Below are positions 5,611-60,711 of a stretch of 64,000 nt of DNA, in pieces. Each line of letters opens with the position of its first letter. Position 1 is the first letter of the stretch. The notes under the pieces were generated by a model. The model was not told where the DNA came from, made no database searches, and was given only the letters and a program-made list of their open reading frames with translations. This DNA is from Parafilimonas terrae (GTDB taxonomy: Bacteria; Bacteroidota; Bacteroidia; Chitinophagales; Chitinophagaceae). A program made the translations under genes and the position numbers. The stretch lies in assembly GCF_900115755.1 (NCBI RefSeq), contig NZ_FOXQ01000005.1:186001-250000 (forward strand), written 5' to 3'.

Positions 5611-5626
5611 TGGCATTGTGGTTGTT
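5611..5626 (+). promoter_or_regulatory. Sigma-54-like -24/-12 promoter
   Basis: TGGCATTGTGGTTGTT matches TGGCAY-N5-TTGCW except that the -12 GC reads GT. It would start transcription near 5637, about 34 bases before the permease start. The upstream palindrome pair supports it. Confidence 0.5.
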
Positions 5627-27215: not shown

Positions 27216-28466
27216 TTATCCCAACGCATAAATATAACCGTCTGCGCTGCCAAAGTAAAGCATGCCATCATCTATCCATATTGTTGAAAAAATGCTTCCC
27301 ATCTTGAGGAATTCTGTATAAAGCGGCGTTACATCGTTTTTATATTTTTCAATTATATCCGCCCTTATTTTATCCGAAGCATCCATAAAATCATGGTAAT
27401 GCTGCTTACTGAAATCCGTCTGAAAGAGTTTTGAAACTTTGCCTGAACTAATATCCAGTTTGTAAACCATTCCATCTATACAACCGAAATATGCAGCGCT
27501 GTCGTTTAATGAAGCGCTGCTGAAAACATTTAGCGGAACCGGTGTTTCATAAAGTTTTGCACCATAGGTTTTTTCAAATCCAAGTATGCTGTGCGAATCA
27601 GACATGGTTACAATTAACCGTTCTGGTGAAAGGCTTGGCACACTCGTCCAGCTTCCGGGTTGATGATATACCCAATGGCCGCCACCATCTTTTATTTTCA
27701 ATGCATATACATTGTAATCTCTTGAACAAAAAAATACCGTGCTGTCGTTAATGATTGCATTAAACTGCACTTCACCTAAAGGGAAATAATGCTCGCCGAT
27801 TGTGTTGAATTTCCAGCGCAGCGTTCCGTCTTCATTAATGCAATAAAAGAAACCATCGAAGCTGCCTGCGAGAACTGCATCATCTGCAATAGCCGGCGAT
27901 GCATGAACAATTCCGCCTGTTTTATATTTCCACAACAATTCTCCGGATAGCTGGCCTAATGCGTATATGTATCCATCGCCACAACCAAAATAAACGCGAT
28001 TGTTATTAACAGCAGGTGATGACTGATAATAATCCCATGCATCATAAAATTTTTCTCCTGCTGTTTTAAATTGCCATCGTTGCTTACCGGTTGCTGCATC
28101 GAGCGCATAAAAAATACCATCCGTACTTATAAAGAAAACCATGTTATTATCTATGGCAACAGATGAGCGTATTTCACCGCCGGTTTTAAATTTCCATATA
28201 ACAGCGCCATTGGTTTTATTTAACGCATAAAGATTACTGTCGCATGAACCTGTAATAAGCATATTGCCGGAGAGAACAGGCGAAGCAAATACATGGCCGC
28301 TGGTTTTGAATTTCCATTTAACAGCGGGTGCATTACTTACGGGCTTGGCTGATGTAAAATTTTTTTTATCGGGCGTTCTGCAGAATTGTTGCGCATATAT
28401 ATGACTGATTAAGAGCAATGCAGGTAAAGTTGCAATACATCTCTTTAAAAATTTTTTCATAAACAT
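27216..28466 (-). CDS. PQQ-type (BamB-like) beta-propeller protein, exported
   Basis: Protein of 416 residues with signal peptide CIATLPALLLISHIYAQ and about seven to eight repeats of the form G-x-x-x-W-K-F-K-T-G/A, for example GAVIWKFKTGGEIRSSV, GKQRWQFKTAG, GELLWKYKTGGIVHASP and GTLRWKFNTIGE. It should fold as an eight-bladed beta-propeller. Such proteins are either BamB-type scaffolds or stand-alone binding proteins; the catalytic residues of PQQ dehydrogenases are not evident. It sits inside the permease array and may be an envelope partner, which is inference from position only. Confidence 0.88.
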   Translation of the reverse strand: MFMKKFLKRCIATLPALLLISHIYAQQFCRTPDKKNFTSAKPVSNAPAVKWKFKTSGHVFASPVLSGNMLITGSCDSNLYALNKTNGAVIWKFKTGGEIRSSVAIDNNMVFFISTDGIFYALDAATGKQRWQFKTAGEKFYDAWDYYQSSPAVNNNRVYFGCGDGYIYALGQLSGELLWKYKTGGIVHASPAIADDAVLAGSFDGFFYCINEDGTLRWKFNTIGEHYFPLGEVQFNAIINDSTVFFCSRDYNVYALKIKDGGGHWVYHQPGSWTSVPSLSPERLIVTMSDSHSILGFEKTYGAKLYETPVPLNVFSSASLNDSAAYFGCIDGMVYKLDISSGKVSKLFQTDFSKQHYHDFMDASDKIRADIIEKYKNDVTPLYTEFLKMGSIFSTIWIDDGMLYFGSADGYIYALG

Positions 28467-28624: not shown

Positions 28625-31087
28625 TTATTCCGTTCTCAAACTTTTCACCGGGTTGGCTATTGCTGCTTTTATGGTTTGCACGCTTAAAGTAATAAGTGCA
28701 ATCATGAGCATGCCAAAACCACACAAAGCAAATATCCACCAGCTTATTGCTGTTCTGTAAGCAAAATCTTCAAGCCATTTATATATTGCCCACCATGCAA
28801 CGGGTGCAGCAATTACAAAAGCTACCAATACCAGTTGCACAAAGTCTTTTGATAAGATGGAAATAATGTTGGTAACCGTTGCACCTAATATTTTTCTTAT
28901 GTCTATTTCTTTTGTGCGTGTATTGATGGTGTACATCACAAGTCCTAATAAACCCAGGCAACTGATGAACACTGATAAGCCTGTTGCCCAACCCAGCAAA
29001 CTTGCAGTGCGCTGTTCTGTTTCATAAAATTTGGCAATAGTTTCGTCTAAAAATTTATAACTGAAATCTTCTTCAGGATATAAACGATGATATGATTTTT
29101 GAATCTGCGCAATGGTGTTTTGCCATGATGCGCCCGCAGCTTGCGGCTGCAATAAAACATGGAAGAAATAACTTCCCGAACCGAGGCTGGAAAATACCAG
29201 CGGGCCAACTTCTGCGTGGAAAGACTGTTCATTAAAATCGTGCATTACACCAACAATGGGCAGCCTTCTTCCATTAAAATCAAGCAGCTTGCCCAACGCA
29301 TTTTCCGGATGCTTAAAACCAAGCGATTTTGCGTAAGTTTCGTTTATTAAAAACTCTTTAATAGTATCGCTTTGCTGCACATTTCTGCCAGCTAATATTT
29401 TTATGTTGAATAGTTTCAGGTAATTGGTATCGCCCCAGCGCAACTGCACACTTTCTTTATTATCATTGGTTGCGCCGGCATAGCTTATACTGGTAAAAGC
29501 AGCGCCTTTATCTGCAGGTGTAAGAAATCCCATACTCGCTATTTGCACACCGGCAATATGCTTTATTTCATTCAGCAATACAGCGCGATGATCAGCCGCT
29601 GAATCGGTGCGGGGAACATTAAAACTTATAACCGCATCTTTTCTGAAACCCATATCAGCATTCAATGAATAATTGATTTGCCGGCTTACCATTACAGTAG
29701 CGATAATAAAGAACTGCGCAATCACAAACTGGGATACCGTTAATACTTTTCTTATCCACGCATGCCTCGTTTCATTGCTGAATGAAAAAGACTGATTCTT
29801 TAAAACCCGGACCGGTTTGTAACCTGATAAAATAAATGCCGGGTATAAGCCTGACAAAAAGCTTACAACAACAGCAAGCAACAATAAAAACAAAAAGATA
29901 TAAGGCTGCCGCAACGGTTGAAATTTTAATCCCGGCGGAATAAAATCTGCAAATAATTTCAGCAGCACAGGAGCCAAACAAAAAGAAATAATACCGGCTG
30001 TTATAGTAAGCAAAAATGTTTCGCCTAAAAACTGGAAGATGAGCTGCTTTTTTGAGCTGCCCATTGTTTTGCGGATACCGATTTCTTTAGCGCGGCTTGC
30101 AGCATTGGCAGTTGTAAGATTGATAAAATTGATGCATGCAAGTATTAAGAGAAACGCAGCCACAGCCAGCAGTCCGTATAAAGTGGGTTTATGCGCCAGC
30201 CGCTGGTTAAACCCTGCATATAAAGCATTAAAATGAATATCGTTTAATGACTCCAAATGAAAACGCTGGTAGTTAAGGTCATCCTTATACGCATTCTTAT
30301 TATACTTATTAAAAATATCGTTTAGCTGCTTTTCTGAACTGGAAATATCTGTGCCTGCAGCAAGTTTTATATATACAGAAGAATAAGCCATCCAGTCGTT
30401 CCACACATTCATCATAAAATCATCCTGCATGTGCGTTTGTGCTATCGTGGCAAAAGAGATAAACTCAACTGCATTAAAAGAAGTGCGGGCATTTAAGTCT
30501 TTTACAATACCGGTTACAGTGGCAGTAAAATCATCATTATATTTTATTTGCTTACCAATAATATCATTAATGTTGGCTGAAGGAAAATATTGCTTAGCCC
30601 TGCTTTCCGCAAGCACAACATGAAAAGGATCTTTCAATGAAGATTCAGGTGAACCAGCAAGCCATTTAAAAGGCAGCAGTGAAAAATATTGCGGGTTAGT
30701 AAAAACAATATCCGGCTGCTTTTTAAAAACAGCAGGCTGCGCTGAACCGGCTTTTACTACACTTACTTTCGCTGTTGCATCACCCTGGAACTGCATTAAG
30801 GGAACAACGGCTTCAACGCCTGTTGCTTCATTTTGTATGGCTGCACTTAAGGGCGCAGGCACAGCAGCAGAGTGGCCTTCATTTCCATTAAACTTCATAT
30901 CCATTACAACACGGTAAATGCGGTCTGCATTGGTTTCAATTTTATCATAGCCCAGTTCAAACTGAACAATTAAAAAAATGATGAGCGCTGCGCTTACGCC
31001 AATTGATAAACCCAGTATGTTGATAGCTGTAAACGCTTTGTTGCGGGCAAATACGCGAAAGGCTGTTTTGAAGAAATTGTTGAACAT
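28625..31087 (-). CDS. MacB/FtsX-type ABC permease
   Basis: Permease of 820 residues. Landmarks are the N-terminal helix AINILGLSIGVSAALIIFLIV, the first FtsX block with KEIGIRKTMGSSKKQLIFQFLGE, and the C-terminal block with KEIDIRKILGATVTNIISILSKDF, ending ANPVKSLRTE. The start at 31087 (MFNNFFKTAFRVF) matches its paralogues; an upstream TTG at 31111 is in frame but unlikely. It is part of the minus-strand array. Its periplasmic domains differ clearly from those of its neighbours while the C-terminus is nearly identical, suggesting shared membrane mechanics with different ligands. Confidence 0.91.
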   Translation of the reverse strand: MFNNFFKTAFRVFARNKAFTAINILGLSIGVSAALIIFLIVQFELGYDKIETNADRIYRVVMDMKFNGNEGHSAAVPAPLSAAIQNEATGVEAVVPLMQFQGDATAKVSVVKAGSAQPAVFKKQPDIVFTNPQYFSLLPFKWLAGSPESSLKDPFHVVLAESRAKQYFPSANINDIIGKQIKYNDDFTATVTGIVKDLNARTSFNAVEFISFATIAQTHMQDDFMMNVWNDWMAYSSVYIKLAAGTDISSSEKQLNDIFNKYNKNAYKDDLNYQRFHLESLNDIHFNALYAGFNQRLAHKPTLYGLLAVAAFLLILACINFINLTTANAASRAKEIGIRKTMGSSKKQLIFQFLGETFLLTITAGIISFCLAPVLLKLFADFIPPGLKFQPLRQPYIFLFLLLLAVVVSFLSGLYPAFILSGYKPVRVLKNQSFSFSNETRHAWIRKVLTVSQFVIAQFFIIATVMVSRQINYSLNADMGFRKDAVISFNVPRTDSAADHRAVLLNEIKHIAGVQIASMGFLTPADKGAAFTSISYAGATNDNKESVQLRWGDTNYLKLFNIKILAGRNVQQSDTIKEFLINETYAKSLGFKHPENALGKLLDFNGRRLPIVGVMHDFNEQSFHAEVGPLVFSSLGSGSYFFHVLLQPQAAGASWQNTIAQIQKSYHRLYPEEDFSYKFLDETIAKFYETEQRTASLLGWATGLSVFISCLGLLGLVMYTINTRTKEIDIRKILGATVTNIISILSKDFVQLVLVAFVIAAPVAWWAIYKWLEDFAYRTAISWWIFALCGFGMLMIALITLSVQTIKAAIANPVKSLRTE

Positions 31088-31118
31088 AAAAGATAGTTTA
31101 TTTTGCTGCAAGCCGTCT

Positions 31119-31231: not shown

Positions 31232-33598
31232 TCATTCTGTTCTCAAACTTTTAACAGGATTTGCCAATGCGGCTTTTATTGATTGAAAACTGATGGTAAT
31301 TATTGCAATAATTACAGCCAGCAAACCTGCAACGGCAAAAACGCTCCATCCAATATTTATTTTATAGGCAAAATCCTGCAGCCATTTATCCATTGCATAC
31401 CAGGCAACCGGCGTGGCAATAACAATGGCAACAATTACAAGTTTAATAAAGTCCCTTGCCAGCAATTGTATAACACTGCCCACACTTGCACCTAATACTT
31501 TTCTTACGCCTATCTCTTTTGTGCGCACCTGCGCTGTATAAGCTGCGAGCCCAAATAAACCAAGGCATGAAATAAAAATAGCTATGCCGGCAAATATGTT
31601 GAAGAGTAAACCGGTGCGTTGTTCTGCAGCATATAAGCGGTTAAAATTATCATCAAGAAAACTATATTTAAACGGATAGTTCGCGTTGTATTTCTTCCAT
31701 TCTTTTTGGGCTGCAGCTATAGCCGCCGGTACATCTTTGCCCGTTGTTTTAATATAAATATTTCCATAGTTAAGCGGCTGCGCATAAAAAACGGCGGGTT
31801 TTATTCTTGTGCGCATAGAGGTAAAATGAAAATCTTTTACAACGCCTATTATCGTTCCTTCTGTTTCCCATAAACGCAGGCGTTTGCCAACCGGGTCTTT
31901 AATACGCATGGTTTTTACGGCTGTTTCATTCAATATAAAGTGCATGGAATCTGCAACAGCTCCGGTAAAATTGCCGCCTTGAATCAATTGCATTTTAAAG
32001 AAAGGGATAAAGTTTTTATTGATGTTGATAGGGCTTAGCATAACTGTTTCGCCGGTTTGTTTACCATCCCAATCATTATTACCGGTTTGATTACCAAAGT
32101 CGATTATATCGGCATTGGCAAACGTTACATCTTTTATACCTGGTTGCTTTAAAAGTTCAGCTTTAACAGCCTCGAGATGCCCGGCCATGTATATCATCTT
32201 CATTGATAAAACATTCTCCTTATCATAGCCTAATTGTTTTGAATTGATGTATTGCAATTGCTTGCCAATTACAATAGTTCCTGTTATAAGTATGATTGAA
32301 AAAGTAAACTGCACAACCACCAGCACTTTTCTGAATGCAGCATTACTGAAGTTTGCGTTAATCTTTCCCTTTAAAGCTTTTACCGGTTCAAAAGAAGACA
32401 ATAATAATGCGGGATAAATGCTTGAAATAACAAGCGTGCCCGCAATAGTGCACAGTATTATTTTCCATATATGATAATCAGTAAAATTTAAAACAATTTC
32501 TTTGGATGCCACTGTATTGAAAACCGGTATTAAGCTGTAAACAAGTACAAGCGAAATGATAATAGCTATTACAAAAAGCAATGCTGTTTCTGTTATGAAT
32601 TGCAGGAATAACTGCGTTCTTGCTGCGCCAACAATTTTTCTTAAGCTCACTTCTTTTGCACGCAGCATGGAGCGGGCCGTGGAAAGGTTTACGTAATTAA
32701 TACAGGCAATTACCAGTATTAAAATAGCGATGATGGTAAACATACGTACAGTGCCAATGCCGCCGTCGCCATCATCGGCGCGGTATAAATGCACTTTATT
32801 AAGCGGCAGCCACACATAACCAATATCAGTATCATCCGGCTTAATGCTCAAATGCATGTTGCGCAGTTTTTTGGCAAAGCCTTCAAACGAAAAACCGGGC
32901 TGCAGCAGGAGATAAGTATTGTAATCAAAATTGCTGAAATCGTTATTGATGTTCTTTCCATCCGTATTACTGCTATAATTTTTTTCAGCAACAAGGCTCA
33001 TGGGAAAAATCATATCTCCCTGTATGGTTGAATTTTTAGGAAAGTCTTTTATGATGCCGGTAACTTTAAAAGCATCTTTATATTCAGTAGTTATAACTTT
33101 TCCTATTGCATCATCATTTCCAAAAAACTTTTTGGCTGTTGTTTCAGTTAATACAACTGAACGGCTGTCGGGAAAGGGATTAGCTGCATTTCCTTTAATG
33201 ATATTAAAATCAAACATTGAAAAAAATGAAGGATCAGTAACCACGGTCCTTTCATCACTGAATACTTTATCCCCGTATTTATATAAACCATAATAATAAT
33301 TTTCCGTAACACGCACCACATCTTTTACACCGGGAATTTCTTTCTTTGCCATTTCACCTATCGGCGCTGTAGTTACTGTCCACAATTGCCTTGCCGAGCC
33401 GGTGGCCACCATATTTTCCAGCTTGATAATATTAGGTGCATTCTTGTGAAAACGGTCGTAACTATACTCATCCTGCACCCATAATAAAATGAGTAAACCA
33501 ACGGTTAAGCCAATGCTTAACCCTGCAATATTGATGACAGAATAAAACTTATTCTTCACCAGGTTTCGCCAGGCGGTTTTAAAATAATTTTTAAACAT
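31232..33598 (-). CDS. MacB/FtsX-type ABC permease
   Basis: Permease of 788 residues. It begins MFKNYFKTAWRNLVKNKFYSVINIAGLSIGLTVGLL, with the first FtsX block containing KEVSLRKIVGAARTQLFLQF and the last KEIGVRKVLGASVGSVIQLLARDF. The C-terminus is ANPVKSLRTE. The ATG at 33598 is chosen because all paralogues start MFKxY/TF; the frame is open to 33640 from another start. The gap to the upstream permease is 61 bases and carries a 34-base repeat shared with 40076-40109. Substrate and ATPase partner unknown. Confidence 0.91.
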   Translation of the reverse strand: MFKNYFKTAWRNLVKNKFYSVINIAGLSIGLTVGLLILLWVQDEYSYDRFHKNAPNIIKLENMVATGSARQLWTVTTAPIGEMAKKEIPGVKDVVRVTENYYYGLYKYGDKVFSDERTVVTDPSFFSMFDFNIIKGNAANPFPDSRSVVLTETTAKKFFGNDDAIGKVITTEYKDAFKVTGIIKDFPKNSTIQGDMIFPMSLVAEKNYSSNTDGKNINNDFSNFDYNTYLLLQPGFSFEGFAKKLRNMHLSIKPDDTDIGYVWLPLNKVHLYRADDGDGGIGTVRMFTIIAILILVIACINYVNLSTARSMLRAKEVSLRKIVGAARTQLFLQFITETALLFVIAIIISLVLVYSLIPVFNTVASKEIVLNFTDYHIWKIILCTIAGTLVISSIYPALLLSSFEPVKALKGKINANFSNAAFRKVLVVVQFTFSIILITGTIVIGKQLQYINSKQLGYDKENVLSMKMIYMAGHLEAVKAELLKQPGIKDVTFANADIIDFGNQTGNNDWDGKQTGETVMLSPININKNFIPFFKMQLIQGGNFTGAVADSMHFILNETAVKTMRIKDPVGKRLRLWETEGTIIGVVKDFHFTSMRTRIKPAVFYAQPLNYGNIYIKTTGKDVPAAIAAAQKEWKKYNANYPFKYSFLDDNFNRLYAAEQRTGLLFNIFAGIAIFISCLGLFGLAAYTAQVRTKEIGVRKVLGASVGSVIQLLARDFIKLVIVAIVIATPVAWYAMDKWLQDFAYKINIGWSVFAVAGLLAVIIAIITISFQSIKAALANPVKSLRTE

Positions 33599-33603
33599 AC
33601 AAG

Positions 33604-33637
33604 TTGTTTTTTTGATGTCTGATTTACGGTTGGCCGT
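33604..33637. repeat. Intergenic repeat, copy 1
   Basis: This 34-base tract (starting TTGTTTTTTTGATG) matches 40076-40109 at 32 of 34 positions. Both lie just before the conserved NPVKSLRTE-coding end of the upstream permease. It is followed by the small palindrome GTCAACTGTTGAC at 33636-33648. Confidence 0.75.
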
Positions 33638-33659
33638 CAACTGTTGACCGTTGACTGCC

Positions 33660-36035
33660 TCATTCCGTTCTCAAACTCTTCACGGGATTAGCCACTGCCG
33701 CTTTTATGGATTGAAAGCTGATGGTAATTAAAGCAATAAGTATGGCTGAAATACCTGCTGCTAAAAATACCCACCAGCTTATCTCAATCCTGTATTGATA
33801 ATTTTGCAACCAGTCGCGCATCATCCACCATGAAACCGGGAAAGCAACAAAACATGAAACAGCAACCAGCAATAAAAACTCTTTTGATATAAGCGCTGTA
33901 ATACCAGAAACGCTTGCGCCCAATACTTTGCGTATGCCTATTTCTTTTGTTCTGCGTTCCGCTGTATAAGCAGCTAAACCAAACAATCCCAAACACGAGA
34001 TAATTACAGCAAGCGCGGCAAATATTTTTGAAAGCCGGCTTATCAGTTGCTCATTCTGAAACATTTGGTTGAACTGCTCATCCACAAAATGATAAACGAA
34101 GGGATATGATGGATTATCTTTCTTTATTACCGCTTCAACTTGTTTAAGCGAAGCTTCAACATTTGTTTCATGCTTCAGCCGCACATATACCAGCGATGCA
34201 TCTTCCGGCTTTACGCAAAAAAACATAACAGGGTCCGGCTTGCCATACATATCGCCATACATATAATCGTTTACAACGCCCACAACATTTAAAACAAGGT
34301 TGCTTGTATCACCATCCCAATGCAATGTTTTGCCAACAGCACTGCCTTTACCCATTAATTTTTCCAGCGACTGCGTGATCATTACATTCATCTTTTTTGA
34401 TTGAATACTGTCGGTTTCAACAAGGTCTCTTCCACCCAGGATTTTTATGCCGGCTGTATTCATATAGCCCGGCGAAACAAAACGCGTGGATACCAGTATC
34501 TGGTTGTTGGATGCTTTACCTTCCCACGTAAGCCCGCCTGTGTTATTACCGCTGTATAATGTATTATAATTAGACAATGCAAGGCTTTCAATAATGTTTG
34601 TATTTAAAAGATCTTGCTTAACCACAGCATAATTCTTAGCCAGTTCGCTGTTCATTTCAATTTGCAGCAGGTTATTTTTATTAAAACCAAGGTTCCTGCT
34701 TTTTACATGCTGTATTTGCTGGTAAATAATAATGGTGCTTATAATAAGTATAATGGATACGGAAAATTGCACCACTACCAGCCCCTTTCTTATAAAATTG
34801 GCGCTGCCTGCCTTAAGCTTCAATCCTTTTAAAACAAATACGGGATTAAAGGAGGACAAGTATAATGACGGATAACTGCCTGCTACCAGCCCGCAAACAA
34901 CAGTAATAGCAAGCAATGCCGCTATATGCAACGGACTATTTAAGCCTAACGAAAGTTCTTTTTGTACCAGTAAATTAAAGGCAGGCAATACCAGCGCCAT
35001 AAGAATTAAGGCAAGCATTGCAGACAAAGCCGCCATGAACAGCGCTTCAGTTATAAACTGGAAGACGAGGCTTTGCCTGCCGGCGCCTAACACTTTTCGC
35101 ACACCCACTTCTTTTGCACGCTTCTCGCTGCGCGCTGTGGAGAGGTTCATAAAATTAATGCAGGCTATTAGTAAAATAATCCATGCAATGGTGGTGAATA
35201 AATGCACATAAGTAATGCGCCCGCCACCCGTTTGCACACCGTTATCAAATTCATCGCGCAAATGCCAGTCGTGCAGCGACCATAAAAACGGCCTTGCTAT
35301 AGATTTAGGTTCATGTTGCTGAATAAAATCATACAACAATTTATTTACTGAAGCTGCATTTACACCGGGCTTTAATTCAACAAAGGTGGATAAGCAGTTA
35401 TTGCCCCAATACTGCGCCCATGATTGATTTTCATTATACCACACATCGAATGGCGAAACCCATTCAAAATTTACGGTTGAATTTTTGGGAATATCTTTTA
35501 TAAGGCCTGTAATTATATAATCCTGCTTATTATCCACACGCACTGTTTTACCAAGTACATCTTTATCTGTACCAAAAAACTTCTTTGCTGTTGCCTGTGT
35601 AATAACCATAGAATGCAACTGGGAAAAAGCTGTTTTGGCATTGCCTTCCACAAACGGAAAAGTAAACATGCTGAACAAAGAAGCATCAACATAACTGCCA
35701 ATGGCATACATTGATTTGTTGCCTATGGAAATAAGTTTTGATGAACCTTCACCTCCTAACCTGCATGTGTTGGCAACGCCAGGGATAGCCGATTGCATGG
35801 CTGGCGCCAACGGCACCGGTGTTGAACCAAATGTTGCTGTGTAAGCGTCATACTTTTGGTTTTCGCGGACAAAATATAGTTGGTCTTTTTTAGTATTGAA
35901 CTGATCGAAGTTCAGTTCGTCTTCTACCCATAAAAAAATTAAACCGGCGCAGGCAATGCCAATGGCCAGCCCAAAAATATTTAAGAAGCTATAACCTTTA
36001 TTTTTCCAAAGGTTTCTGAATGTTGTTTTGAACAT
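33660..36035 (-). CDS. MacB/FtsX-type ABC permease
   Basis: Permease of 791 residues starting MFKTTFRNLWKNKGYSFLNIFGLAIGIACAGLIF. The first FtsX block carries KEVGVRKVLGAGRQSLVFQF and the C-terminal block KEIGIRKVLGASVSGITALISKEF, ending ANPVKSLRTE. Eight membrane helices in the 1+3+1+3 pattern are expected. A remnant of another permease start lies just upstream at 36094-36245, so this spot in the array has suffered a deletion. No ATP-binding subunit is nearby. Confidence 0.91.
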   Translation of the reverse strand: MFKTTFRNLWKNKGYSFLNIFGLAIGIACAGLIFLWVEDELNFDQFNTKKDQLYFVRENQKYDAYTATFGSTPVPLAPAMQSAIPGVANTCRLGGEGSSKLISIGNKSMYAIGSYVDASLFSMFTFPFVEGNAKTAFSQLHSMVITQATAKKFFGTDKDVLGKTVRVDNKQDYIITGLIKDIPKNSTVNFEWVSPFDVWYNENQSWAQYWGNNCLSTFVELKPGVNAASVNKLLYDFIQQHEPKSIARPFLWSLHDWHLRDEFDNGVQTGGGRITYVHLFTTIAWIILLIACINFMNLSTARSEKRAKEVGVRKVLGAGRQSLVFQFITEALFMAALSAMLALILMALVLPAFNLLVQKELSLGLNSPLHIAALLAITVVCGLVAGSYPSLYLSSFNPVFVLKGLKLKAGSANFIRKGLVVVQFSVSIILIISTIIIYQQIQHVKSRNLGFNKNNLLQIEMNSELAKNYAVVKQDLLNTNIIESLALSNYNTLYSGNNTGGLTWEGKASNNQILVSTRFVSPGYMNTAGIKILGGRDLVETDSIQSKKMNVMITQSLEKLMGKGSAVGKTLHWDGDTSNLVLNVVGVVNDYMYGDMYGKPDPVMFFCVKPEDASLVYVRLKHETNVEASLKQVEAVIKKDNPSYPFVYHFVDEQFNQMFQNEQLISRLSKIFAALAVIISCLGLFGLAAYTAERRTKEIGIRKVLGASVSGITALISKEFLLLVAVSCFVAFPVSWWMMRDWLQNYQYRIEISWWVFLAAGISAILIALITISFQSIKAAVANPVKSLRTE

Positions 36036-36324: not shown

Positions 36325-37536
36325 TCATGCCGCTCTCCTGCCGAGTGAACGCATTACTTGTCCATAATAATAATCAGACTTTATATTTTTAGCAGCATCG
36401 CCAATTTGTTTTCTTAAGGTTTCGCTATCCGGCATTTTATCAGCAATCTTCATCAGCATCTGGGCCTGGTAATAATCAGAACCTATCTTTCCTGCGTATT
36501 GTATCAGGCTGCTCCATGCCGCTTCATCTGTAATGTTTTCGTCTATCAGGCCAGAGAGTATGCTGTATTGATAATAATCGCTCTTTATGTTTTGTGCTGC
36601 AGCTATCGTTTTATCATAACGGTCTTTATTAAGCGTTTTATTTTTAAGCAGGGCGCTGATGATCTCAGATTTGTAATAGTCGCTGCCCATATTGCCTGCT
36701 ATCTTCATAAGACCTGCAAACCTTGCATCAGAAATATCATTATTGCTTAATAGTTTTTTTACCACTTCGGCCTGATAGTAATCAGATTTCATATTACTTA
36801 CAATGGTCATTACCTGCTGGTATTGTTTTTCATTAAGCGATGTATTGAGTAATTTTTTTACTGTTTCACTTTGATAATAATCGGAAGAAATGCTGTTTAC
36901 AGTTTGCAGGTAAGCATTGGATGTAGCTTCATCGGCAAGAAAGGGGCCCATTACACCATCCAGTAATTCAGCTTTATAATAATCGCTGCTGAGGTACTGA
37001 TTGGCCTTATTAAGCAGTGTAACCATTTCATCTTTTGAAAGCTTTTGATTTTTCAACAGGTAAGAGAGATACATTTCTTTTACATAATCACTTTTGAAGC
37101 GCTCCACTTCGCTCAATACGCCAGAAGTGCCTTTTTGAGCAAATATTCTTTGTACGCGGTTATCGGCATCCACACCATAATCAATCAGCAACTGCACGCA
37201 GTCTTCAACAAGCGCTTTATCTTCTGCAGTCAGCGTTGATTTTTTATTACCATTAACCGTATATAAAAGATTGCCTTTGCCATCTTCTTCCACTTCAAGC
37301 GACTGACCTTTTTTGCGATAATAGATGTACCCTTCATCAGATATCGACGTAATGCTTTTATCATCATCGCCAAGCTTTACATCGCCTTTAATAGTGAGCG
37401 TTAATTTTTCAGCGCTGTTCTTTACTTTTAAATTAAATACGTTGTTTAGTCTTGAGTAAGAAACCTCATTATTTTGCGCATGTATCAGCGCAACAAATGC
37501 AAAACATAACAGTAAACTTGAAATGATCTTTTTCAT
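36325..37536 (-). CDS. Exported protein with eight 34-residue SDYY helical repeats
   Basis: Protein of 403 residues that I do not recognise by name. Signal peptide IISSLLLCFAFVALIHAQ is followed by a beta-rich region to about 100 (LTLTIKGDVKLGDDDKSI) and then eight repeats starting SDYV/SDYY at residues 149, 184, 218, 251, 285, 319, 353 and 387. The consensus is SDYYQAE-x-x-x-x-LL with a second helix ending IxSNMK/IAGNMG. The 33-35-residue period is that of TPR-like alpha-solenoids, but the motif is distinct. It probably forms a periplasmic binding scaffold. It lies within the permease array on the same strand, so a link to the permeases is possible. Function unknown. Confidence 0.85.
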   Translation of the reverse strand: MKKIISSLLLCFAFVALIHAQNNEVSYSRLNNVFNLKVKNSAEKLTLTIKGDVKLGDDDKSITSISDEGYIYYRKKGQSLEVEEDGKGNLLYTVNGNKKSTLTAEDKALVEDCVQLLIDYGVDADNRVQRIFAQKGTSGVLSEVERFKSDYVKEMYLSYLLKNQKLSKDEMVTLLNKANQYLSSDYYKAELLDGVMGPFLADEATSNAYLQTVNSISSDYYQSETVKKLLNTSLNEKQYQQVMTIVSNMKSDYYQAEVVKKLLSNNDISDARFAGLMKIAGNMGSDYYKSEIISALLKNKTLNKDRYDKTIAAAQNIKSDYYQYSILSGLIDENITDEAAWSSLIQYAGKIGSDYYQAQMLMKIADKMPDSETLRKQIGDAAKNIKSDYYYGQVMRSLGRRAA

Positions 37537-37627: not shown

Positions 37628-40057
37628 TCATTCCGTTCTTAAACTCTTTACCGGGTTGGCCACAGCCGCTTTGATTGTTTGAAAGCCAACTGCAATAGAT
37701 GTTACAACAAGCGCGGCCAGGACAGCTACGGCAAAAACCCACCAGCTTATAGATGTTCTGTAAGCAAAATCCTGCAGCCATTTATTCATTAATAACCACG
37801 CTATTGGTGCAGCAATAAAAAATGCTACAACAATAAGTTTCAAAAAGTCTTTGGATAATATGAATGATATGTCTTTAACCGAAGCGCCCAACACTTTGCG
37901 AATGCCAATTTCTTTAGTCTTTTGTTCTATCATAAAAGACAGCAGGCCCACAAGGCCAAGTATATTAATGACTACAGACAGGAAAGTGAACAGGTTAAAT
38001 AGATGCTGTGTGCGCTTTTCATTCTTATATAGTGAAGCAATATGCTGATCTAAAAAACTGGTTTCAAACAATTGATCGGGATATACAGATGTCCAGGCTT
38101 TTTCAATAGCGGCTAATGTGGCAGCCGAATATCCTTTGCTTAATTTTATACCGGCGTTATAATAAAAGAAAGGAAAATCAACCATTATTACCGGCGCCAC
38201 GGCATCGTGCAGCGATGTTGTATTATAATCTTTCACCACGCCAACTACCGGCGCTGTTATATCGTACATGCCAAAAGTTACATACTTGCCTATTGCCTTT
38301 TCAGGAGAAGCAAAACCAAGCGCTTTTACAGCTTTTTCATTCAACACAAAAGCATAATGCTTTAAGGAATCCGGAATTGACAGATCAATATTGTGCTCAT
38401 CAGTATCATCAATCCAGCGGCCTGCCAGCAGTTGCAGGTTATAGGTTTTTAAATAATTTTTATCAGAAGCTTTTACTTCCACATCAATCTTTTCAGAAGC
38501 ATATTTTTCTTTAACATTAAAACCCGTAGATGCATTGTTATCTGCTATTGGCGCACCAAGCGAAAGGCTAACGTTGCTTACGCCCGGTATGGCGGCCAGC
38601 TTGTCTTTCAGCAATTTCAGTTGTTGCGGCTTATTTTCCGGAAGGCTTATATCCACCACATTATTCGTTATAAAACCCAGCGGTTGCGATTGTATAAAAT
38701 TCATTTGCTTTGCCACCACCAAAGCGCCGATAATTAAAACCTGCGCCGTTAAAAACTGGAACACAACAAGGCTTCTTCTTAATGTAACAACAGAAGTTTT
38801 TGGCGTTATAGTTTTATTCTTTAAAGCAGTAATAGGATTGAAACCTGATAAAACAAATGCAGGATATAAACCAGACAGCAATGATACCGTAATCCATAAA
38901 CCTGCCAAAAACAAAGCGCTCTTTATATGCAGCCAGTTAAGCGGAATATTTTTATCGAAGAATTTATTTAGCGGCGGCAGGAACAGATTAATAGATAAAG
39001 CAGCAACAATAAATACAAAAGCAGTAAGCAAAAAAGTTTCTGATAAGAATTGTTTGATTAAATGCTGCCTCGTTGCGCCCATGGTTTTACGCACGCCAAC
39101 TTCTTTCGATTTTTTTATTGCAAGCGCCGTTGAAAGGTTTGTATAATTAATACAGGCTGATAAAATGAGGAACAAGCCTATAGCACCGATTAAATACAAA
39201 TAGCTATAGTTAATGGTATAAGACGGGTTGCTGTTAGCATACAATTGATTGAAATGAATATCAGGCAATGGCTGCAGGCTGAATGCAGTGGTGGTGCCGT
39301 CATTATCTTTGTTAAGATGATCGTTGGCAATGCCAGCAAGTGCACGCTGCACCCGGCTTACTTTATTTTTATCGGATAATGCTATATACGTAAATCCTGA
39401 AGCGCTTAAGCCCCACTGATCTATTGGAAACCCGCCAATAAATTCAGGCCGCAATGATTTGTAAGAAACAATCATATTATACGGTAAATGCGTATTGGAA
39501 GGCGCATTTGCTATTACAGCAGCCACCTGCAGGTCAACAAGATTTAAAATTTTTATACGCTTGCCTACAGGGTTTTCATTACCAAAAAATTTACGGGCCG
39601 TTTCTTCCGTAAGAATGGCAAAGCCCGGTTCCGTAAGCGCTCTTTTTATATCGCCTTGTTGTACTGTTAAAGGAAACAGTTTGGGAAAAACAGAATCAGC
39701 AAAAACAATACTTGTTTCCCGTAATTTTTTGTTATCAAAAAAAACAGGCGCATTGCTTTGAAAATGAATTTGGGAAATAAGTTTTTCATCCGGCATAGCA
39801 GCCCGCAAGGCTGTTGCCAGCGGATATGGTGTGATAGGGTTATAGGTTTTGCCCGTTGGCCTTTCTACAGCTTTTACAATGCGGTAAATGTTTGTATCGT
39901 TACCTGCAGATTTATCAAAACTTGTTTCATGCAGAATGATCAAACCAATCAATATGCATGCAACCACGCTTATGTAAAGGCCAATAAAATTCAGCGCAAA
40001 AAAGCCTTTGTTCTTTTTTATATTTCGCCACGCGGTTAACAAATAATTTTTAAACAT
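37628..40057 (-). CDS. MacB/FtsX-type ABC permease
   Basis: Permease of 809 residues starting MFKNYLLTAWRNIKKNKGFFALNFIGLYISVVACILIG. The first membrane helix has GLYISV where its paralogues have GLAIG. The first FtsX block holds KEVGVRKTMGATRQHLIKQFLSE and the C-terminal block KEIGIRKVLGASVKDISFILSKDF, ending ANPVKSLRTE. It lies 60 bases after the permease starting at 42577 and is probably co-transcribed with it. Periplasmic domain sequences differ from all neighbours. Confidence 0.91.
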   Translation of the reverse strand: MFKNYLLTAWRNIKKNKGFFALNFIGLYISVVACILIGLIILHETSFDKSAGNDTNIYRIVKAVERPTGKTYNPITPYPLATALRAAMPDEKLISQIHFQSNAPVFFDNKKLRETSIVFADSVFPKLFPLTVQQGDIKRALTEPGFAILTEETARKFFGNENPVGKRIKILNLVDLQVAAVIANAPSNTHLPYNMIVSYKSLRPEFIGGFPIDQWGLSASGFTYIALSDKNKVSRVQRALAGIANDHLNKDNDGTTTAFSLQPLPDIHFNQLYANSNPSYTINYSYLYLIGAIGLFLILSACINYTNLSTALAIKKSKEVGVRKTMGATRQHLIKQFLSETFLLTAFVFIVAALSINLFLPPLNKFFDKNIPLNWLHIKSALFLAGLWITVSLLSGLYPAFVLSGFNPITALKNKTITPKTSVVTLRRSLVVFQFLTAQVLIIGALVVAKQMNFIQSQPLGFITNNVVDISLPENKPQQLKLLKDKLAAIPGVSNVSLSLGAPIADNNASTGFNVKEKYASEKIDVEVKASDKNYLKTYNLQLLAGRWIDDTDEHNIDLSIPDSLKHYAFVLNEKAVKALGFASPEKAIGKYVTFGMYDITAPVVGVVKDYNTTSLHDAVAPVIMVDFPFFYYNAGIKLSKGYSAATLAAIEKAWTSVYPDQLFETSFLDQHIASLYKNEKRTQHLFNLFTFLSVVINILGLVGLLSFMIEQKTKEIGIRKVLGASVKDISFILSKDFLKLIVVAFFIAAPIAWLLMNKWLQDFAYRTSISWWVFAVAVLAALVVTSIAVGFQTIKAAVANPVKSLRTE

Positions 40058-40117: not shown

Positions 40118-42577
40118 TCATTCCGTTCTCAAACTTTTCACCGGGTTAGCAACGGCCGCCCTTATTGCCTGTACGCTGATGGTTAATAAAGCTATAAGCA
40201 GCGCAACCAATGCAGTTATTAAAAATACCGTCCAGCTTATATGCGTGCGGTAAGCAAAACTTTGCAGCCATTTCTTCATAATAAACCAGGCCAGCGGCGA
40301 TGCTATAATAATGGCAATGCTAACAAGCTTTAAAAAATCTGTTGAAAGCAAAGCAACGATGCTGGATACACTTGCTCCTAAAACTTTGCGCACGCCAATT
40401 TCTTTTATGCGTTGCTCGGCGCTGAAAGTGGCAAGGCCAAACAAACCAAGGCATGAAATAAGAATGGCGATGATAGTGAAGTCGCCCACAATGGCTGACA
40501 GCTTATTTTCCGCATCATAATTTTCCTGGAAATCCTTGTCAAGAAAACTGTAATCAAAAGGTTCTGAGGCATTAAGGCTGTGCCAGGTATTTTGAACAGC
40601 TTTTAAAGCCGCAGCCATATCATTTGATTTAATATGCACAATGGCATAATTAAACTGTGGCGGTATATTCAACATAAAACCGAAAGGGCCGATGGGCAGG
40701 TGAAGGTCTTCATAATGAAAATCTTTCACCACGCCAGCAATATTGAAATTATAAGTAATGTTATTAAAAGTGGAATGCAGTTTTTGATTAACAGCTTGCT
40801 GCGCATTGGCAAAACCTAAAGACTTTACAGAGCTTTCATTCAATACAACAGCAGCAGTTGTGGTATCCTGTGCATAATAATCATCTGAAAACATTCTGCC
40901 GGCAAGCAGTTTAATGCCGAGCGTTTGAAGAAAACGCGTATCAACATAATTCATCTTTACATCCTTGCCCTGCTGCATATCCTGGCCATCTTTAAAGAAA
41001 ATATTATCTGCAACGTTTGCAATGCCGGGATAATACAATGATGCGCCAACATTGCTTACGTATGATTGTTTAAGCAGCTCGTCTTTTAATGCGCCGTACA
41101 TTTCTTTTGCATGGCCGCTGCGCAATGGAATTACAACCTGCTGGTTTTGTTCAAATCCAAGATCGGCAGAACGAAGAAATTTCATTTGATTGTTGATAAC
41201 AACAGAAGCTACAATCAATACAACAGAAATAATGAACTGAAAAACCACCAGCGTTTTACGCAGTGTAATGGCAGAAAGTGAATTGGAGAACTTGCCTTTT
41301 AAAACCCTTGCCGGGTTGAAAGAAGATAAATAAAATGCAGGATAACTGCCCGCTATCAATCCTGTAATTATGGCTAATGCAGCAAATGTGGCAATAAGGC
41401 CGGCATTATCTGTAAACGACAAGGCGAGCTGCTTTCCGGAAACCTGGTTAAACAAAGGCAATAACAATTTTGTAAATGCAAATGCAAGCAGTAAAGCAGT
41501 GAGGCTCATTAAAACTGCTTCGCCAAGAAATTGCGTTACCAGTAATTTTTTTTGTGCGCCTAATACTTTTCTTATGCCCACTTCCGCTGAACGTTTGGCA
41601 GATTGCGCGGTAGCAAGGTTCATGAAATTAATGCAGGCAATTAATAAAGTAAACAATGCGATGGAACCGAGAATGTATAAATACGTTACGCTGCCGCCCG
41701 GCGTAACATTGTTCTTCACATCTTCATTCAAATGAATTTGTTTAAGCGGAACGAGGAATTGCTTTTTTGAAAAACCTACAGCCTTTAAATCGTTGCCTGC
41801 ATATTTTTCAATAAACGCGGGAAATTTAGCTTCAAGGTTGGCAACATTAGCACCGGGTTTTAGCTTAAGATAAGTAAAGAAGTAATTATTTGTTGCAAGA
41901 TTGGGGCCCTGGCTTTTTATTCTTTCTTCCATAGCGCCGCCCATCATGCTCATAAAAAACCTGCCGTCAATATGCGAAGGTTTATTAATGGGTTTAAAAA
42001 CACCTGTAACCATAAAATCATGATCACCGTTAGTGCTGCTGCTTATATGCACCACTTTATTTAATGCAGGCTGGCTGCCAAATAATTTCCTGGCAACATC
42101 TTCAGACAATACAACTGTATTAGGATTATTTAATGCAGATTGTGGTTGCCCCTCAACAAAATTGTAAGTAAACATTCTGAAGAAAGTTGAATCTGCGAGG
42201 TAGCCTTTGGTTTCATAAAAAGATTTTACACTGCCGCTACCTTCGTTGTATTGCAGCAATGTTTTATCTTCTCCAAAAAGCCTTGCAATTCTTGTGGATT
42301 GCTCTATTTCAGGAAAAACATTCTGCATGGTTTCTCCCAAAGCAGCCGGTGTATTCGGTAATTTTTTAAAATTTCCAAGGCCTATAAATTCACTCCCAAC
42401 CTGGTAAATATTACCTGCATCTTTTTGATAAGTGTCATAACTCGTTTCATTTAAAATATACAGCGTTATCATTATACAGCAGGTAAGCCCTACTGATAAA
42501 CCAATGATGTTTATAAATGAAAACATCTTGCTCTTCATTACGTTGCGCCACGCCGTTTTGAGGTAAGTTTTAAACAT
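40118..42577 (-). CDS. MacB/FtsX-type ABC permease, first gene of the array
   Basis: Permease of 819 residues starting MFKTYLKTAWRNVMKSKMFSFINIIGLSVGLTCC. The first FtsX block has AEVGIRKVLGAQKKLLVTQFLGE and the C-terminal block KEIGVRKVLGASVSSIVALLSTDF, ending ANPVKSLRTE. The ATG at 42577 matches the paralogues. A clear sigma-54-type promoter and tandem palindromes lie upstream, and all genes down to 24757 run in the same direction. It may therefore lead a long, inducible permease transcript interrupted by partial hairpins. Confidence 0.92.
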   Translation of the reverse strand: MFKTYLKTAWRNVMKSKMFSFINIIGLSVGLTCCIMITLYILNETSYDTYQKDAGNIYQVGSEFIGLGNFKKLPNTPAALGETMQNVFPEIEQSTRIARLFGEDKTLLQYNEGSGSVKSFYETKGYLADSTFFRMFTYNFVEGQPQSALNNPNTVVLSEDVARKLFGSQPALNKVVHISSSTNGDHDFMVTGVFKPINKPSHIDGRFFMSMMGGAMEERIKSQGPNLATNNYFFTYLKLKPGANVANLEAKFPAFIEKYAGNDLKAVGFSKKQFLVPLKQIHLNEDVKNNVTPGGSVTYLYILGSIALFTLLIACINFMNLATAQSAKRSAEVGIRKVLGAQKKLLVTQFLGEAVLMSLTALLLAFAFTKLLLPLFNQVSGKQLALSFTDNAGLIATFAALAIITGLIAGSYPAFYLSSFNPARVLKGKFSNSLSAITLRKTLVVFQFIISVVLIVASVVINNQMKFLRSADLGFEQNQQVVIPLRSGHAKEMYGALKDELLKQSYVSNVGASLYYPGIANVADNIFFKDGQDMQQGKDVKMNYVDTRFLQTLGIKLLAGRMFSDDYYAQDTTTAAVVLNESSVKSLGFANAQQAVNQKLHSTFNNITYNFNIAGVVKDFHYEDLHLPIGPFGFMLNIPPQFNYAIVHIKSNDMAAALKAVQNTWHSLNASEPFDYSFLDKDFQENYDAENKLSAIVGDFTIIAILISCLGLFGLATFSAEQRIKEIGVRKVLGASVSSIVALLSTDFLKLVSIAIIIASPLAWFIMKKWLQSFAYRTHISWTVFLITALVALLIALLTISVQAIRAAVANPVKSLRTE

Positions 42578-42645
42578 GAGATACCCGGTTTGGTTATAGA
42601 ACTTTTCTATTACTATAACGCATAGCAATAACTGCCTGTGAAGTT

Positions 42646-42661
42646 TGCAACGTAAATGCCA
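42646..42661 (-). promoter_or_regulatory. Sigma-54 -24/-12 promoter
   Basis: On the minus strand TGGCATTTACGTTGCA matches TGGCAY-N5-TTGCW fully, with GG and GC correctly spaced. Transcription would begin near 42635, giving a leader of about 58 bases before the permease at 42577. Confidence 0.75.
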
Positions 42662-42707
42662 AGCATATAAGAAATTGTTTTTTAATAGTTTAGGATTGAC
42701 TAAATTG

Positions 42708-42737
42708 AAAAAGGTGTTCGATAATGAACACCTTTTT
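42708..42737. terminator. Terminator hairpin overlapping an enhancer-like palindrome
   Basis: Arms AAAAAGGTGTTC (42708-42719) and GAACACCTTTTT (42726-42737) form a perfect 12-bp stem with a 6-base loop and U-tracts on both strands. It can end transcripts of the L,D-transpeptidase-like gene. Its core is also the proximal palindrome of the permease promoter. Confidence 0.85.
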
Positions 42738-42752
42738 GTACGGCGGTGAACG
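42715..42752 (-). promoter_or_regulatory. Tandem palindromes, candidate enhancer-binding-protein sites
   Basis: Proximal TGTTCGATAATGAACA (42715-42730) and distal TGTACGGCGGTGAACG (42737-42752) both have the 6-4-6 form. Their centres are 22 bp apart, and the proximal centre is 75 bp from the -12 GC of the sigma-54 element, identical to the set before 5671. Confidence 0.6.
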
Positions 42753-42820: not shown

Positions 42821-44077
42821 CTATTTCAGCAGCGGCAGCACTTCGCTTATATCTACATTCGATCTTTTATCGTCTATATCAATCACTACCACATAGCCTT
42901 CGCCAATTCCGATATCGTTAATTGCATTTACAATTTTTTGCTGGTTGCTTACAGTTCTGTAACCATCTTCATTCCAGTCTTCAAAACTGCACAAACAACC
43001 CAGTGACGGCGTTTGCGGATAATAAGTTTGGTCTTTATAAAACTGGGGATCGATGGTAGTGCCATGCATAATAATCGCGTTTCTTCCAATTTGCCCGGCA
43101 TAAAAACTTTCATATATATTATTATAGTTTTTCCACGATGCCGGCAATAAGGAAGCATATAAACCCAGGCTCCATGAAGAATCAATATAATTACTGTCTG
43201 CAAAAAAAGAGGAGGCTGTTATTTCAAATGGCAACTGTAATTGCAGGTTTTGCGTTGGGCCAATATATAAGAGCCTTGATACATCAAACCCACTGAAACG
43301 CAAGATGCCTTGCGGCGTATTGCCATTGGTTATATAAAAAGGATAATTTGTTATAGCCCTCGCCAGTTGCGATGTGTGAAAAAAACCGCCTGCCGGGTCC
43401 TTTAAAAATGTTCCATCGGGTTTGCGGATGAGTACCAGCCCTGCATAATCGCGGTTGCTGCGCTGCAGGCTGTAAATAACGGTTTTGCCGGGCAAAAAAC
43501 TGCTATCAAAAATATCATACATCGGCGGCCGCTGTTGCGGTTTGCCGGCATAAATACGGCTTTTTAATAACCGCATTCCAATGCTGTTATCATAAGGAAA
43601 CTTTTGTTTAATTAATGCAGCCACAACCTGTTTCCCTTTTACTGAATCGGCCCTTAAAACATATTCTGCACAGCGTATAAAAATAGCTGTGGATTTTGTT
43701 TGCTGCATTAATTGTAATGCCTGCGTTTTAAATTCTGTTTTATATAAAGAGAAAGTTGTTTCCAGTAAATTCTTTTGAAAATAAGCTGATAGCTGAGCGG
43801 CCTTGTTCCACGCAATTCCAAGCTTTTGCCTGGTAAAAGCATCTTTATATTGAAGCAATTCCATTGCCCATAAAGCATCGTTCCATTCGCCTTCATTATC
43901 ATCATTCAGCGGATCCAGCAAATATTGTTTTATTGCCGTATCGGCAAGATAACGGTATCGGGCAGCCTTTGCGTCTTTTGTAGTAACCCTGCTGAATACC
44001 ATGTCATCCGGCATAGGCGGTTGCGCTGATACAGCAGCAGAAAATAATAATGCAGCAATTAAAAAACAATATTTCAT
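42821..44077 (-). CDS. Exported L,D-transpeptidase-like protein
   Basis: Protein of 418 residues with signal peptide YCFLIAALLFSAAVSAQ. The C-terminal region near 340-375 contains IIMHGTTIDPQFYKD and, about 16 residues later, SLGCLC. This follows the HG...SxGC pattern of YkuD-type L,D-transpeptidases with a catalytic Cys, although the usual Arg after the Cys pair is absent. The N-terminal 200 residues are helical and unassigned. It could remodel peptidoglycan or attach proteins in the periplasm. The ATG at 44077 gives the best signal peptide; another ATG lies at 44101. A strong terminator follows. Confidence 0.65.
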   Translation of the reverse strand: MKYCFLIAALLFSAAVSAQPPMPDDMVFSRVTTKDAKAARYRYLADTAIKQYLLDPLNDDNEGEWNDALWAMELLQYKDAFTRQKLGIAWNKAAQLSAYFQKNLLETTFSLYKTEFKTQALQLMQQTKSTAIFIRCAEYVLRADSVKGKQVVAALIKQKFPYDNSIGMRLLKSRIYAGKPQQRPPMYDIFDSSFLPGKTVIYSLQRSNRDYAGLVLIRKPDGTFLKDPAGGFFHTSQLARAITNYPFYITNGNTPQGILRFSGFDVSRLLYIGPTQNLQLQLPFEITASSFFADSNYIDSSWSLGLYASLLPASWKNYNNIYESFYAGQIGRNAIIMHGTTIDPQFYKDQTYYPQTPSLGCLCSFEDWNEDGYRTVSNQQKIVNAINDIGIGEGYVVVIDIDDKRSNVDISEVLPLLK

Positions 44078-44155
44078 GAAAGCGAAACTACAGTACCGCA
44101 TTGCAGTAATTTTCTTAAAGTTGTTAACAGCTGTGCAGGTGTTATAAAAATATTC

Positions 44156-56146: not shown

Positions 56147-56163
56147 TGCAACATTGCGTTGCA
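56147..56163 (+). other. Hairpin in RND operon leader
   Basis: TGCAAC, a 5-base loop and GTTGCA, then CTCTTGCGATTTTCTT. It is weakly terminator-like and could act as an attenuator with the upstream small frame. Confidence 0.35.
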
Positions 56164-56209
56164 CTCTTGCGATTTTCTTACCAATTACAAACAATTAAAA
56201 TTTAAACGT

Positions 56210-57403
56210 ATGATACGTCTAATAAAGGGTATTGTCCAAAGTCAACTGTTTATTTTAATAGCAGGCGCAATAATTATAGGCATCACATACAGTTGCAATG
56301 AATCTGCAGCAGAAAACAGCACCGGCGCTATGCCGCCGCCGCAATTGCCTGTGATTGATGTAAAGGCAGCGCCAGCTACCACTTATCAATTATTCCCTGC
56401 CTCAATAGAAGGGAAAGTTAATGTTGAAATAAGGCCGCAGGTAGATGGCTATTTACAAAAGATGTATGTGGATGAAGGCGCTTATGTAAAAGAAGGCCAG
56501 CCATTATTTAAAATAAATGATGCGCCATACATTGAGCAACTTAATAATGCAAAAGCAAGTTTGCAATCTGCTGAAGCAACATTGCAAAGAGCGAAGGTGG
56601 AGCTGGACCGTTTAACACCTCTCGTTGATAACAATGTTATATCTGATGTGCAGTTAAAAACAGCCAGGGCAAATTATGATGCCGCTGTTGCTGCCATTAG
56701 TCAAAACAAAGCAATAGTAAGCGCTGCACAGATCAATGTGGGTTATACTTTAATTAAAGCGCCGGTTAGTGGTTACATAGGAAAGATCCCGTATAAAACA
56801 GGCGCCCTTGTTGGCAAAACTTCTGCAGAGCCGCTTACTTTATTATCAGATGTAAGTGAAGTGTATGCTTATTTTTCTTTGAGTGAAGCTGATTTCATTG
56901 CTTTTAAAAACCAGTTTGAAGGCAATACAATTGAAGAAAAATTAAAGCATGTTCCGCCGGTGGAACTGCAGTTGGCCAATGATAGTTTATATAAGCTAAA
57001 AGGAAAAATAGAAACAGTAGAAGGGCAGTTTGATGAAACGACGGGCTCAATAAGTTTTCGTGCAACTTTTCCAAATGCATCCGGCGTTTTACGTTCCGGC
57101 AATACAGGTAAAATAAGAATTCCAAAATTATATACATCGGCATTGGTGGTACCGCAGGAAGCCACTTACGAAATACAGGACAAAGTATTTGTTTATGTAG
57201 TAAGCGACAGCAATAAGGTTACCGGCACGCCCATCAATGTTTCCGGCAAAACAGCTAACTATTACTTTGTTGACAGCAGCCTTGTATCCAACAGTAAAAT
57301 TGTTTTATCCGGAATAACTAACCTTCGGGATGGAATGCTTATTAATCCACAACCTGTATCAACAGACAGCTTATTCAAAGCAAGGCCAATAAGTAATTTA
57401 TAA
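56210..57403 (+). CDS. RND efflux periplasmic adaptor (MexA/AcrA type)
   Basis: Membrane-fusion protein of 397 residues with a lipoprotein-like signal (LIAGAIIIGITYSC). In order it has a beta-barrel/lipoyl start (VEIRPQVDGYLQKMYVDEGAYVKEGQPLFKINDAPY), an alpha-hairpin with QSAEATLQRAKVELDRLTPLVDNNVISDVQLKTARANYDAA, a second lipoyl half (TLIKAPVSGYIGKIPYKTGALVG), and a C-terminal barrel. It links the inner-membrane pump to the outer-membrane channel. The ATG at 56210 is preferred to an upstream TTG. It is the first gene of the efflux operon. Confidence 0.94.
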   Translation: MIRLIKGIVQSQLFILIAGAIIIGITYSCNESAAENSTGAMPPPQLPVIDVKAAPATTYQLFPASIEGKVNVEIRPQVDGYLQKMYVDEGAYVKEGQPLFKINDAPYIEQLNNAKASLQSAEATLQRAKVELDRLTPLVDNNVISDVQLKTARANYDAAVAAISQNKAIVSAAQINVGYTLIKAPVSGYIGKIPYKTGALVGKTSAEPLTLLSDVSEVYAYFSLSEADFIAFKNQFEGNTIEEKLKHVPPVELQLANDSLYKLKGKIETVEGQFDETTGSISFRATFPNASGVLRSGNTGKIRIPKLYTSALVVPQEATYEIQDKVFVYVVSDSNKVTGTPINVSGKTANYYFVDSSLVSNSKIVLSGITNLRDGMLINPQPVSTDSLFKARPISNL

Positions 57404-57412
57404 AATTTGAAA

Positions 57413-57469
57413 GCCGGTGAAATACAGCGTGGATAAAGCTTTAGACAGGATATAGTTTTATTCACCGGC
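57413..57469 (+). other. Long-range hairpin between adaptor and pump genes
   Basis: GCCGGTGAA (57413-57421) pairs perfectly with TTCACCGGC (57461-57469) across 39 bases in the adaptor-pump gap. It may be a processing or stabilising structure that sets the adaptor to pump ratio. Confidence 0.45.
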
Positions 57470-57550
57470 TTCAAATTCTTTCAGTAATCATTTAAAAAAT
57501 TAGCAAGGCTGATGAGTGTATCTCATCAGCTAATAAAACTTTTATTCCTG

Positions 57551-60697: not shown

Positions 60698-60711
60698 TAA
60701 AAAAACAAGCA

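Follow-up and report, generated by a model that had tools for sequence, protein, structure and literature searches.

A probable sigma-54 promoter with paired upstream dyads before a permease array of Parafilimonas terrae, its recurrence before exporter genes of related bacteria, and a candidate NtrC-type activator

Sigma-54 promoters with paired upstream sites were known before this work, and the NtrC-type sigma-54 two-component scheme, in which activation depends on phosphorylation, is exemplified by NtrC, ZraR, and AtoC. The Bce/Psd systems are peptide detoxification modules of Firmicutes with an OmpR-family response regulator and a permease serving as flux sensor for the kinase, and a short loop between two membrane helices is a trait of intramembrane-sensing kinases. 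The ADOP permeases are orphans, with no ATPase beside them. A 2025 report describes COG0577 permeases as enriched in the predicted sigma-54 target set of Bacteroidia, which it terms the first evidence for this link (PMC12316311).

In this work, the DNA before a permease gene of Parafilimonas terrae was analysed in a window, by which we mean the whole stretch of 64,000 nucleotides (C18:186001-250000 in the 4.99-Mb assembly). On the minus strand, ATG 42577 is preceded, in this order, by a distal dyad, a proximal dyad, a spacer of 53 bp, and a sigma-54 element. The putative distal activator dyad CGTTCACCGCCGTACA (42737-42752, minus read 42752-42737) is imperfect, with 8 of 10 consensus positions, and the proximal dyad TGTTCATTATCGAACA (42715-42730, minus read 42730-42715) has 9 of 10. 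The A/T-rich linker of 53 bp (42662-42714, minus) leads to the -24/-12 element TGGCATTTACGTTGCA (42646-42661, minus), which was assigned by sequence match and occurs in one exact copy in the entire genome (42661-42646); the ATG lies 84 nt from the start of TGGCA. The dyad-to-dyad distance is 22 bp, and that to the -24 element is 53/75 bp (a gap of 53 bp from the proximal dyad). The original prediction had placed a sigma-54 element and two palindromes before this gene, and all three were found where it put them. Furthermore, an imperfect inverted repeat was observed at 42586-42620, where the mRNA of the permease would have its leader.

The gene behind this set encodes a fused FtsX/MacB permease (40118-42577, ATG at 42577; the start in the ORF list is TTG 42628) and is the first of an array on the minus strand. 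It is followed by permease 2 (37628-40057), a protein of 403 aa that matched no Pfam or NCBIfam family at E 0.001 (36325-37536), permeases 3 (33660-36035), 4 (31232-33640), and 5 (28625-31111), a beta-propeller (PQQ-like) protein (27216-28466), and permease 6 (24757-27150). A second set, read on the plus strand, precedes the permease at 5671-8112 (plus) and includes a distal dyad TGTCCGCTTTCCGGTT (5520-5535), a proximal dyad TGTACGATACCGTACA (5542-5557), and a sigma-54 element TGGCATTGTGGTTGTT (5611-5626, plus). Its spacings had been predicted to be identical to those of the first set, and they are: the dyads are 22 bp apart, and the -24 element follows at 53/75 bp. In its letters, the distal dyad keeps only the left half-site (6 of 10 consensus positions), and the -12 part is TTGT instead of TTGC. 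All seven permeases of the window are about 800 aa long and contain both MacB_PCD and FtsX twice, and no relative of the core exporter ATPase was detected among the window ORFs of at least 100 aa (phmmer, E 1e-5). Elsewhere in the window (56159-62121), a weakly HlyD-like ORF is followed by ORFs of 1061 and 469 aa, and judged from size and order this group looks like an RND efflux system.

The genome contains 46 MacB_PCD matches, of which those in long frames resolve, in the fetched stretches, to 22 fused permeases, one of them divided over two stretches and so listed in two of 23 rows. The composite of dyad and sigma-54 element was sought, with a gap of 46-59 allowed, in 411 kb made up of the window and 20 fetched stretches, some of which overlap. 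The stretches are a biased sample of the genome, as they were picked partly around dyads, permeases, and activators. Seven sites had 18 or 19 of 19 positions with a gap of 51-53, and all seven stand before permeases (starts at C18:160064, 191671, and 228577; C21:131135; C32:627868, 654991, and 718227). One more row of 17 overlapped one of these sites, and two Markov-1 copies gave no score of 17 or more. In an unbiased search of the whole genome, the relaxed pattern TGTNCN6GNACA-N50-54-TGGCAYN5TTG matched five times, always before a permease, and its reversed form did not match at all. If the arrays are co-transcribed, 17 of the 22 fused permeases would stand behind strong sites and four behind the core operon; no site was found upstream of the fused permease at C32:661153.

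Neither half of the composite was a usable marker by itself. The dyad alone (TGTNCGN5GNACA) occurred at 19 genome places, merely six of them before permeases, and was thus unspecific, with 27 rows on both strands vs 34 for the reversed control; the exact sigma-54 sequence TGGCATN5TTGCA occurred at three places, one of them before a permease. Perfect dyads were also observed before two paralogous, secreted-looking proteins of 145 aa (L008 1501-1516 and L014 1501-1516; C21:163873 and C29:127513); the distance from these dyads to a TGGTAY..TTTGA element is 93-94 bp vs the usual 51-53. An extra full dyad in between was sought at both loci, and none accounts for the longer gap. These proteins possibly form a second target class.

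The recurrence of the composite was examined in 294 Chitinophagaceae genomes by the strict pattern TGTNCGN4CGNACA-N50-54-TGGCAYN5TTG. It was found at 133 places in 71 genomes, and neither the reversed pattern nor the pattern with a displaced gap of 61-65 occurred in any of the 294. Chance is therefore excluded for the dyad/sigma-54 composite. All 133 places were inspected (30 loci, three own sites, L167 and L168, and 98 stretches), and at 130 of them the first exporter gene in the 2.2 kb downstream, counted on the strand of the site, encodes a permease (99), an HlyD protein (22), or an ATPase followed by TolC (9). Two of the other three places lie at contig ends (484 and 122 nt left), and the third (L225) stands before an unrelated protein. 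At 126 of the 130 places, less than 400 nt separate the -24 element from the start of the exporter gene; the distance is larger at L233, L241, L270, and one L272 site. Eight genomes of the genus gave 36 matches to the relaxed pattern, 30 of which were tested and all 30 stand before a permease; the control gave none. In the class, 12 of 395 genomes matched and the control again gave none. Nine sites lie outside the family, before HlyD (4), a permease (3), or other proteins (2). Outside the family, in L174 and L175, the site precedes proteins of 350 and 133 aa that look secreted and are not exporters.

These counts support the predicted match beyond chance and the proposed dedicated permease regulon, which on this evidence would be wider than predicted: besides permeases, it appears to include HlyD-led exporter operons and ATPase-TolC pairs. 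Random scatter, named in the original prediction as the outcome of a fixed-spacing search that would speak against it, was not seen. The spacing of exactly 22 and 75 bp, seen in both window sets, is only one setting in a narrow range. The distance between the dyads is 21 (commonest) or 22 bp, and that from the dyad to the -24 element ranges from 50 to 54 bp and peaks at 51-52 (7, 56, 42, 19, and 10 rows for 50 to 54 bp, respectively, in 134 rows with one place in two loci). By comparing 132 distinct sites, a second dyad with at least 7 of 10 positions was found at offset 21 in 59 and at offset 22 in 19, and the remaining offsets from 16 to 60 gave 0 to 9 sites each. The better of offsets 21 and 22 reached at least 7 in 78 sites and was weaker in 54. 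The linkers are A/T-rich, with AA and TT conserved in the stretch from about 30 to about 6 bp upstream of TGGCA (CAA..TT-like positions), and may resemble an IHF site; a bend by IHF or HU is possible in the linker at 42662-42714.

A sigma-54 gene is present in the genome (PF04552, E 2.6e-53), together with eight PF00158 proteins above 220 bits. The regulator of the permeases is probably encoded outside the window: the candidate is the response regulator at C18:145584-146942, of REC-AAA-HTH_8 architecture (PF00072, PF00158, PF02954). It lies 39 kb left of the window, with an adjoining kinase and with HlyD, ATPase, and permeases opposite. Of the eight activator neighbourhoods fetched, this one alone combines permeases with HlyD and ATPase. 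The association recurs in other genomes. Among the named loci with an activator relative, which are the best 80 of 578 candidates, activator, kinase, HlyD, ATPase, and permease occur together in 54, and in 44 of the 55 that are at least 20 kb long. One or more of HlyD, ATPase, and permease were found in 72 of these 80, and no exporter part above threshold in eight (L060, L062, L067, L073, L108, L126, L129, and L131). Several of the eight loci are short, though L062 and L073 have full length. In 11 Pontibacter/Rufibacter loci, HlyD is mostly absent nearby and a related site, TGTGCG-N4-(C/T)G(C/T)AC at 53-54 bp with an imperfect -12, points toward the activator gene. Of 78 kinases, 75 have two N-terminal hydrophobic segments joined by a predicted loop of 0-12 residues, and in three one helix was found (from hydropathy only).

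Activator relatives (E<=1e-140) were found in 138 of the 294 family genomes. They occur in 68 of 71 site-bearing vs 70 of 223 site-less genomes (Fisher p 7e-24), a co-occurrence confounded by kinship, as the genomes are related and non-independent, and by the shared presence of the exporter. Two of the three site-bearing genomes without a relative at this threshold are 63-67% complete, and the third (G039) is well assembled; 70 of the 138 activator-bearing genomes have no strict site match. Four of the 22 HlyD-type places were fetched widely (L280, L281, L285, and L289), and in each the site heads a row of HlyD..ATPase-permease-permease-activator-kinase. Thus, the activator gene, here a more distant one of about 41% identity, stands behind its presumed own site. 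Moreover, the recognition helix LG(L/I)(T/S)RxxLYRR is common to the activators of the three exporter types, and the C-termini differ in the four other own activators that were compared (those besides L045, L051, and L053).

The sites could also be true sigma-54 operators read by an activator other than the C18 protein, for example by another of the eight, which we consider unlikely. This would agree with the weak sites next to the candidate. Its own core HlyD-ATPase operon has a site score of 2.2 vs a training minimum of 31, with the strong site missing upstream, and in front of core HlyD operons there is often a half-dyad that is followed, 51-54 bp on, by TGGCAY with a poor -12. Over 55 intergenic regions, 19 exceeded the 99th percentile of shuffles toward HlyD and eight toward the activator, and the own ATPase-TolC pair (C19) has a similar weak site with a gap of 53. 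As the core-operon sites are weak, the neighbourhood of the activator is weaker evidence than the distant sites. In addition, activators related at about 51% and 41% identity are present in other genomes, and on C29 (L052 4374-6904) another NtrC-type response regulator is encoded divergently from an ABC ATPase that is a relative of the core exporter's and belongs to its superfamily. However, it is the C18-type activator that is frequently linked to the exporter and co-occurs with the sites, and related activators, whose recognition helix is similar, are encoded in the rows headed by sites. The C18 regulator stays the most likely reader.

The proximal dyad also forms the core of a perfect inverted repeat, AAAAAGGTGTTC-N6-GAACACCTTTTT (42708-42737, minus), whose 12-bp arms give a terminator-like hairpin of -15 kcal/mol. 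It could accordingly be a mere intrinsic terminator of the gene at 42821-44101 (minus), which ends just upstream, with the sigma-54-like element beside it by coincidence. The perfect arms, the flanking A and T runs, the correct strand and co-directional gene, the stability (z -5.7), and a lean to T of the bases 3' of the dyad (51-71% at the second and third positions in the 132 sites) fit this explanation. A terminator, however, leaves the constant distance of 50-54 bp from the -24 element, the shared TGTNCG/CGNACA core, and the second dyad at 21 or 22 bp unexplained, and the terminator scan listed none at 42708-42737. Furthermore, among 35 sites with enough upstream DNA, the upstream gene is co-directional in 23, divergent in 10, and unclear in two, so there is nothing to terminate at 10 of the 33 classifiable sites. 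We regard it as very unlikely that the palindrome is only a terminator, and termination does not explain the sites in general; at the 42577 site alone, the palindrome may be both operator and terminator. That the promoters are alike merely because permeases were duplicated along with their upstream DNA, which would not imply common regulation, is scarcely credible: the permeases are indeed paralogues and some sites inside one genome are close together, but the linkers of the seven own sites are down to 41-45% identity while the fixed motif positions remain 92-96% identical, and the unrelated HlyD and ATPase-TolC genes carry the same site.

Taken with the motif, its geometry and conservation, the gene context, the co-occurrence, and the sigma-54 gene, the region before 42577 is very probably an NtrC-type sigma-54 promoter with two activator-bound dyads, the activator being most likely that at C18:145584-146942, which would bring about permease expression on a signal. 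We propose that the adjoining membrane kinase phosphorylates this regulator, whose dimers would bind the two dyads, set 21-22 bp or roughly two turns of the helix from each other, at 50-75 bp upstream of -24. The bound activator would then oligomerise and hydrolyse ATP, and so open the RNA polymerase-sigma-54 complex. Permease 42577, and the six-permease array if it is co-transcribed, would be switched on only upon the signal. Such a regulon would link the core exporter with orphan permeases that have no ATPase gene in their vicinity, and the exported substrates may be peptides or other envelope-active compounds. One ATPase shared by the orphan permeases is a guess, because seven ATPases of the core superfamily are present in the genome (E<=1e-25). 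As a tentative and rather doubtful extension, the system might be a sigma-54-based Bacteroidota counterpart of Bce-type sensing, in which an intramembrane-sensing kinase without a periplasmic domain reads the activity of one HlyD-ATPase-permease exporter, and one enhancer-binding protein induces a large set of interchangeable orphan permeases, scattered over the chromosome, all of which would work with one common ATPase and adaptor.

These results give a concrete handle on a large and poorly understood permease family of Bacteroidota, namely a candidate regulator and kinase, an operator, and a list of targets. In addition, the working mode of orphan FtsX permeases without a neighbouring ATPase becomes testable through their co-induction with, or dependence on, the core ATPase and adaptor. 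New here are the operator, the geometry with its controls, the extent of the regulon, and the candidate activator-kinase pair; in the open-access literature, no published account of the regulator, operator, or geometry was found. The permease class and the sigma factor are shared with the 2025 report, whose searched passages name no activator, operator, spacing, or regulon extent (PMC12316311).

By its predicted parts, the system is like NtrC-type regulons, with a REC-AAA-HTH_8 regulator and kinase, paired upstream dyads, an A/T-rich linker, and a -24/-12 element. Unlike the regulons of NtrC, ZraR, and AtoC, its targets are parts of ABC exporters, mostly orphan permeases. Among the 25 of 97 NCBIfam matches listed, none reaches its cut-off (368 bits vs 760 for ZraR, 378 vs 714 for AtoC, and 326 vs 559 for NtrC). 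The permeases resemble ADOP (TIGR03434) in a full-length match, with about 800 aa and a doubled MacB_PCD-FtsX make-up, and those of the window also in having no neighbouring relative of the core ATPase (window ORFs of at least 100 aa); the two of seven scanned stay below the cut-off of 622.3 with 300.7 and 334.7 bits. The cut-off of 700 for the darobactin exporter DarB (NF038008) was likewise not reached (172.5 and 137.1 bits), and the HlyD protein resembles DarC (NF038010), yet with 166 bits vs a cut-off of 450. Like the Bce/Psd modules, the system unites FtsX-family permeases with a kinase that, in 75 of 78 cases, has two predicted membrane helices no more than 12 residues apart. It differs from them in that an NtrC-type response regulator with sigma-54 takes the place of the OmpR-type regulator, and HlyD and TolC genes accompany the exporter.
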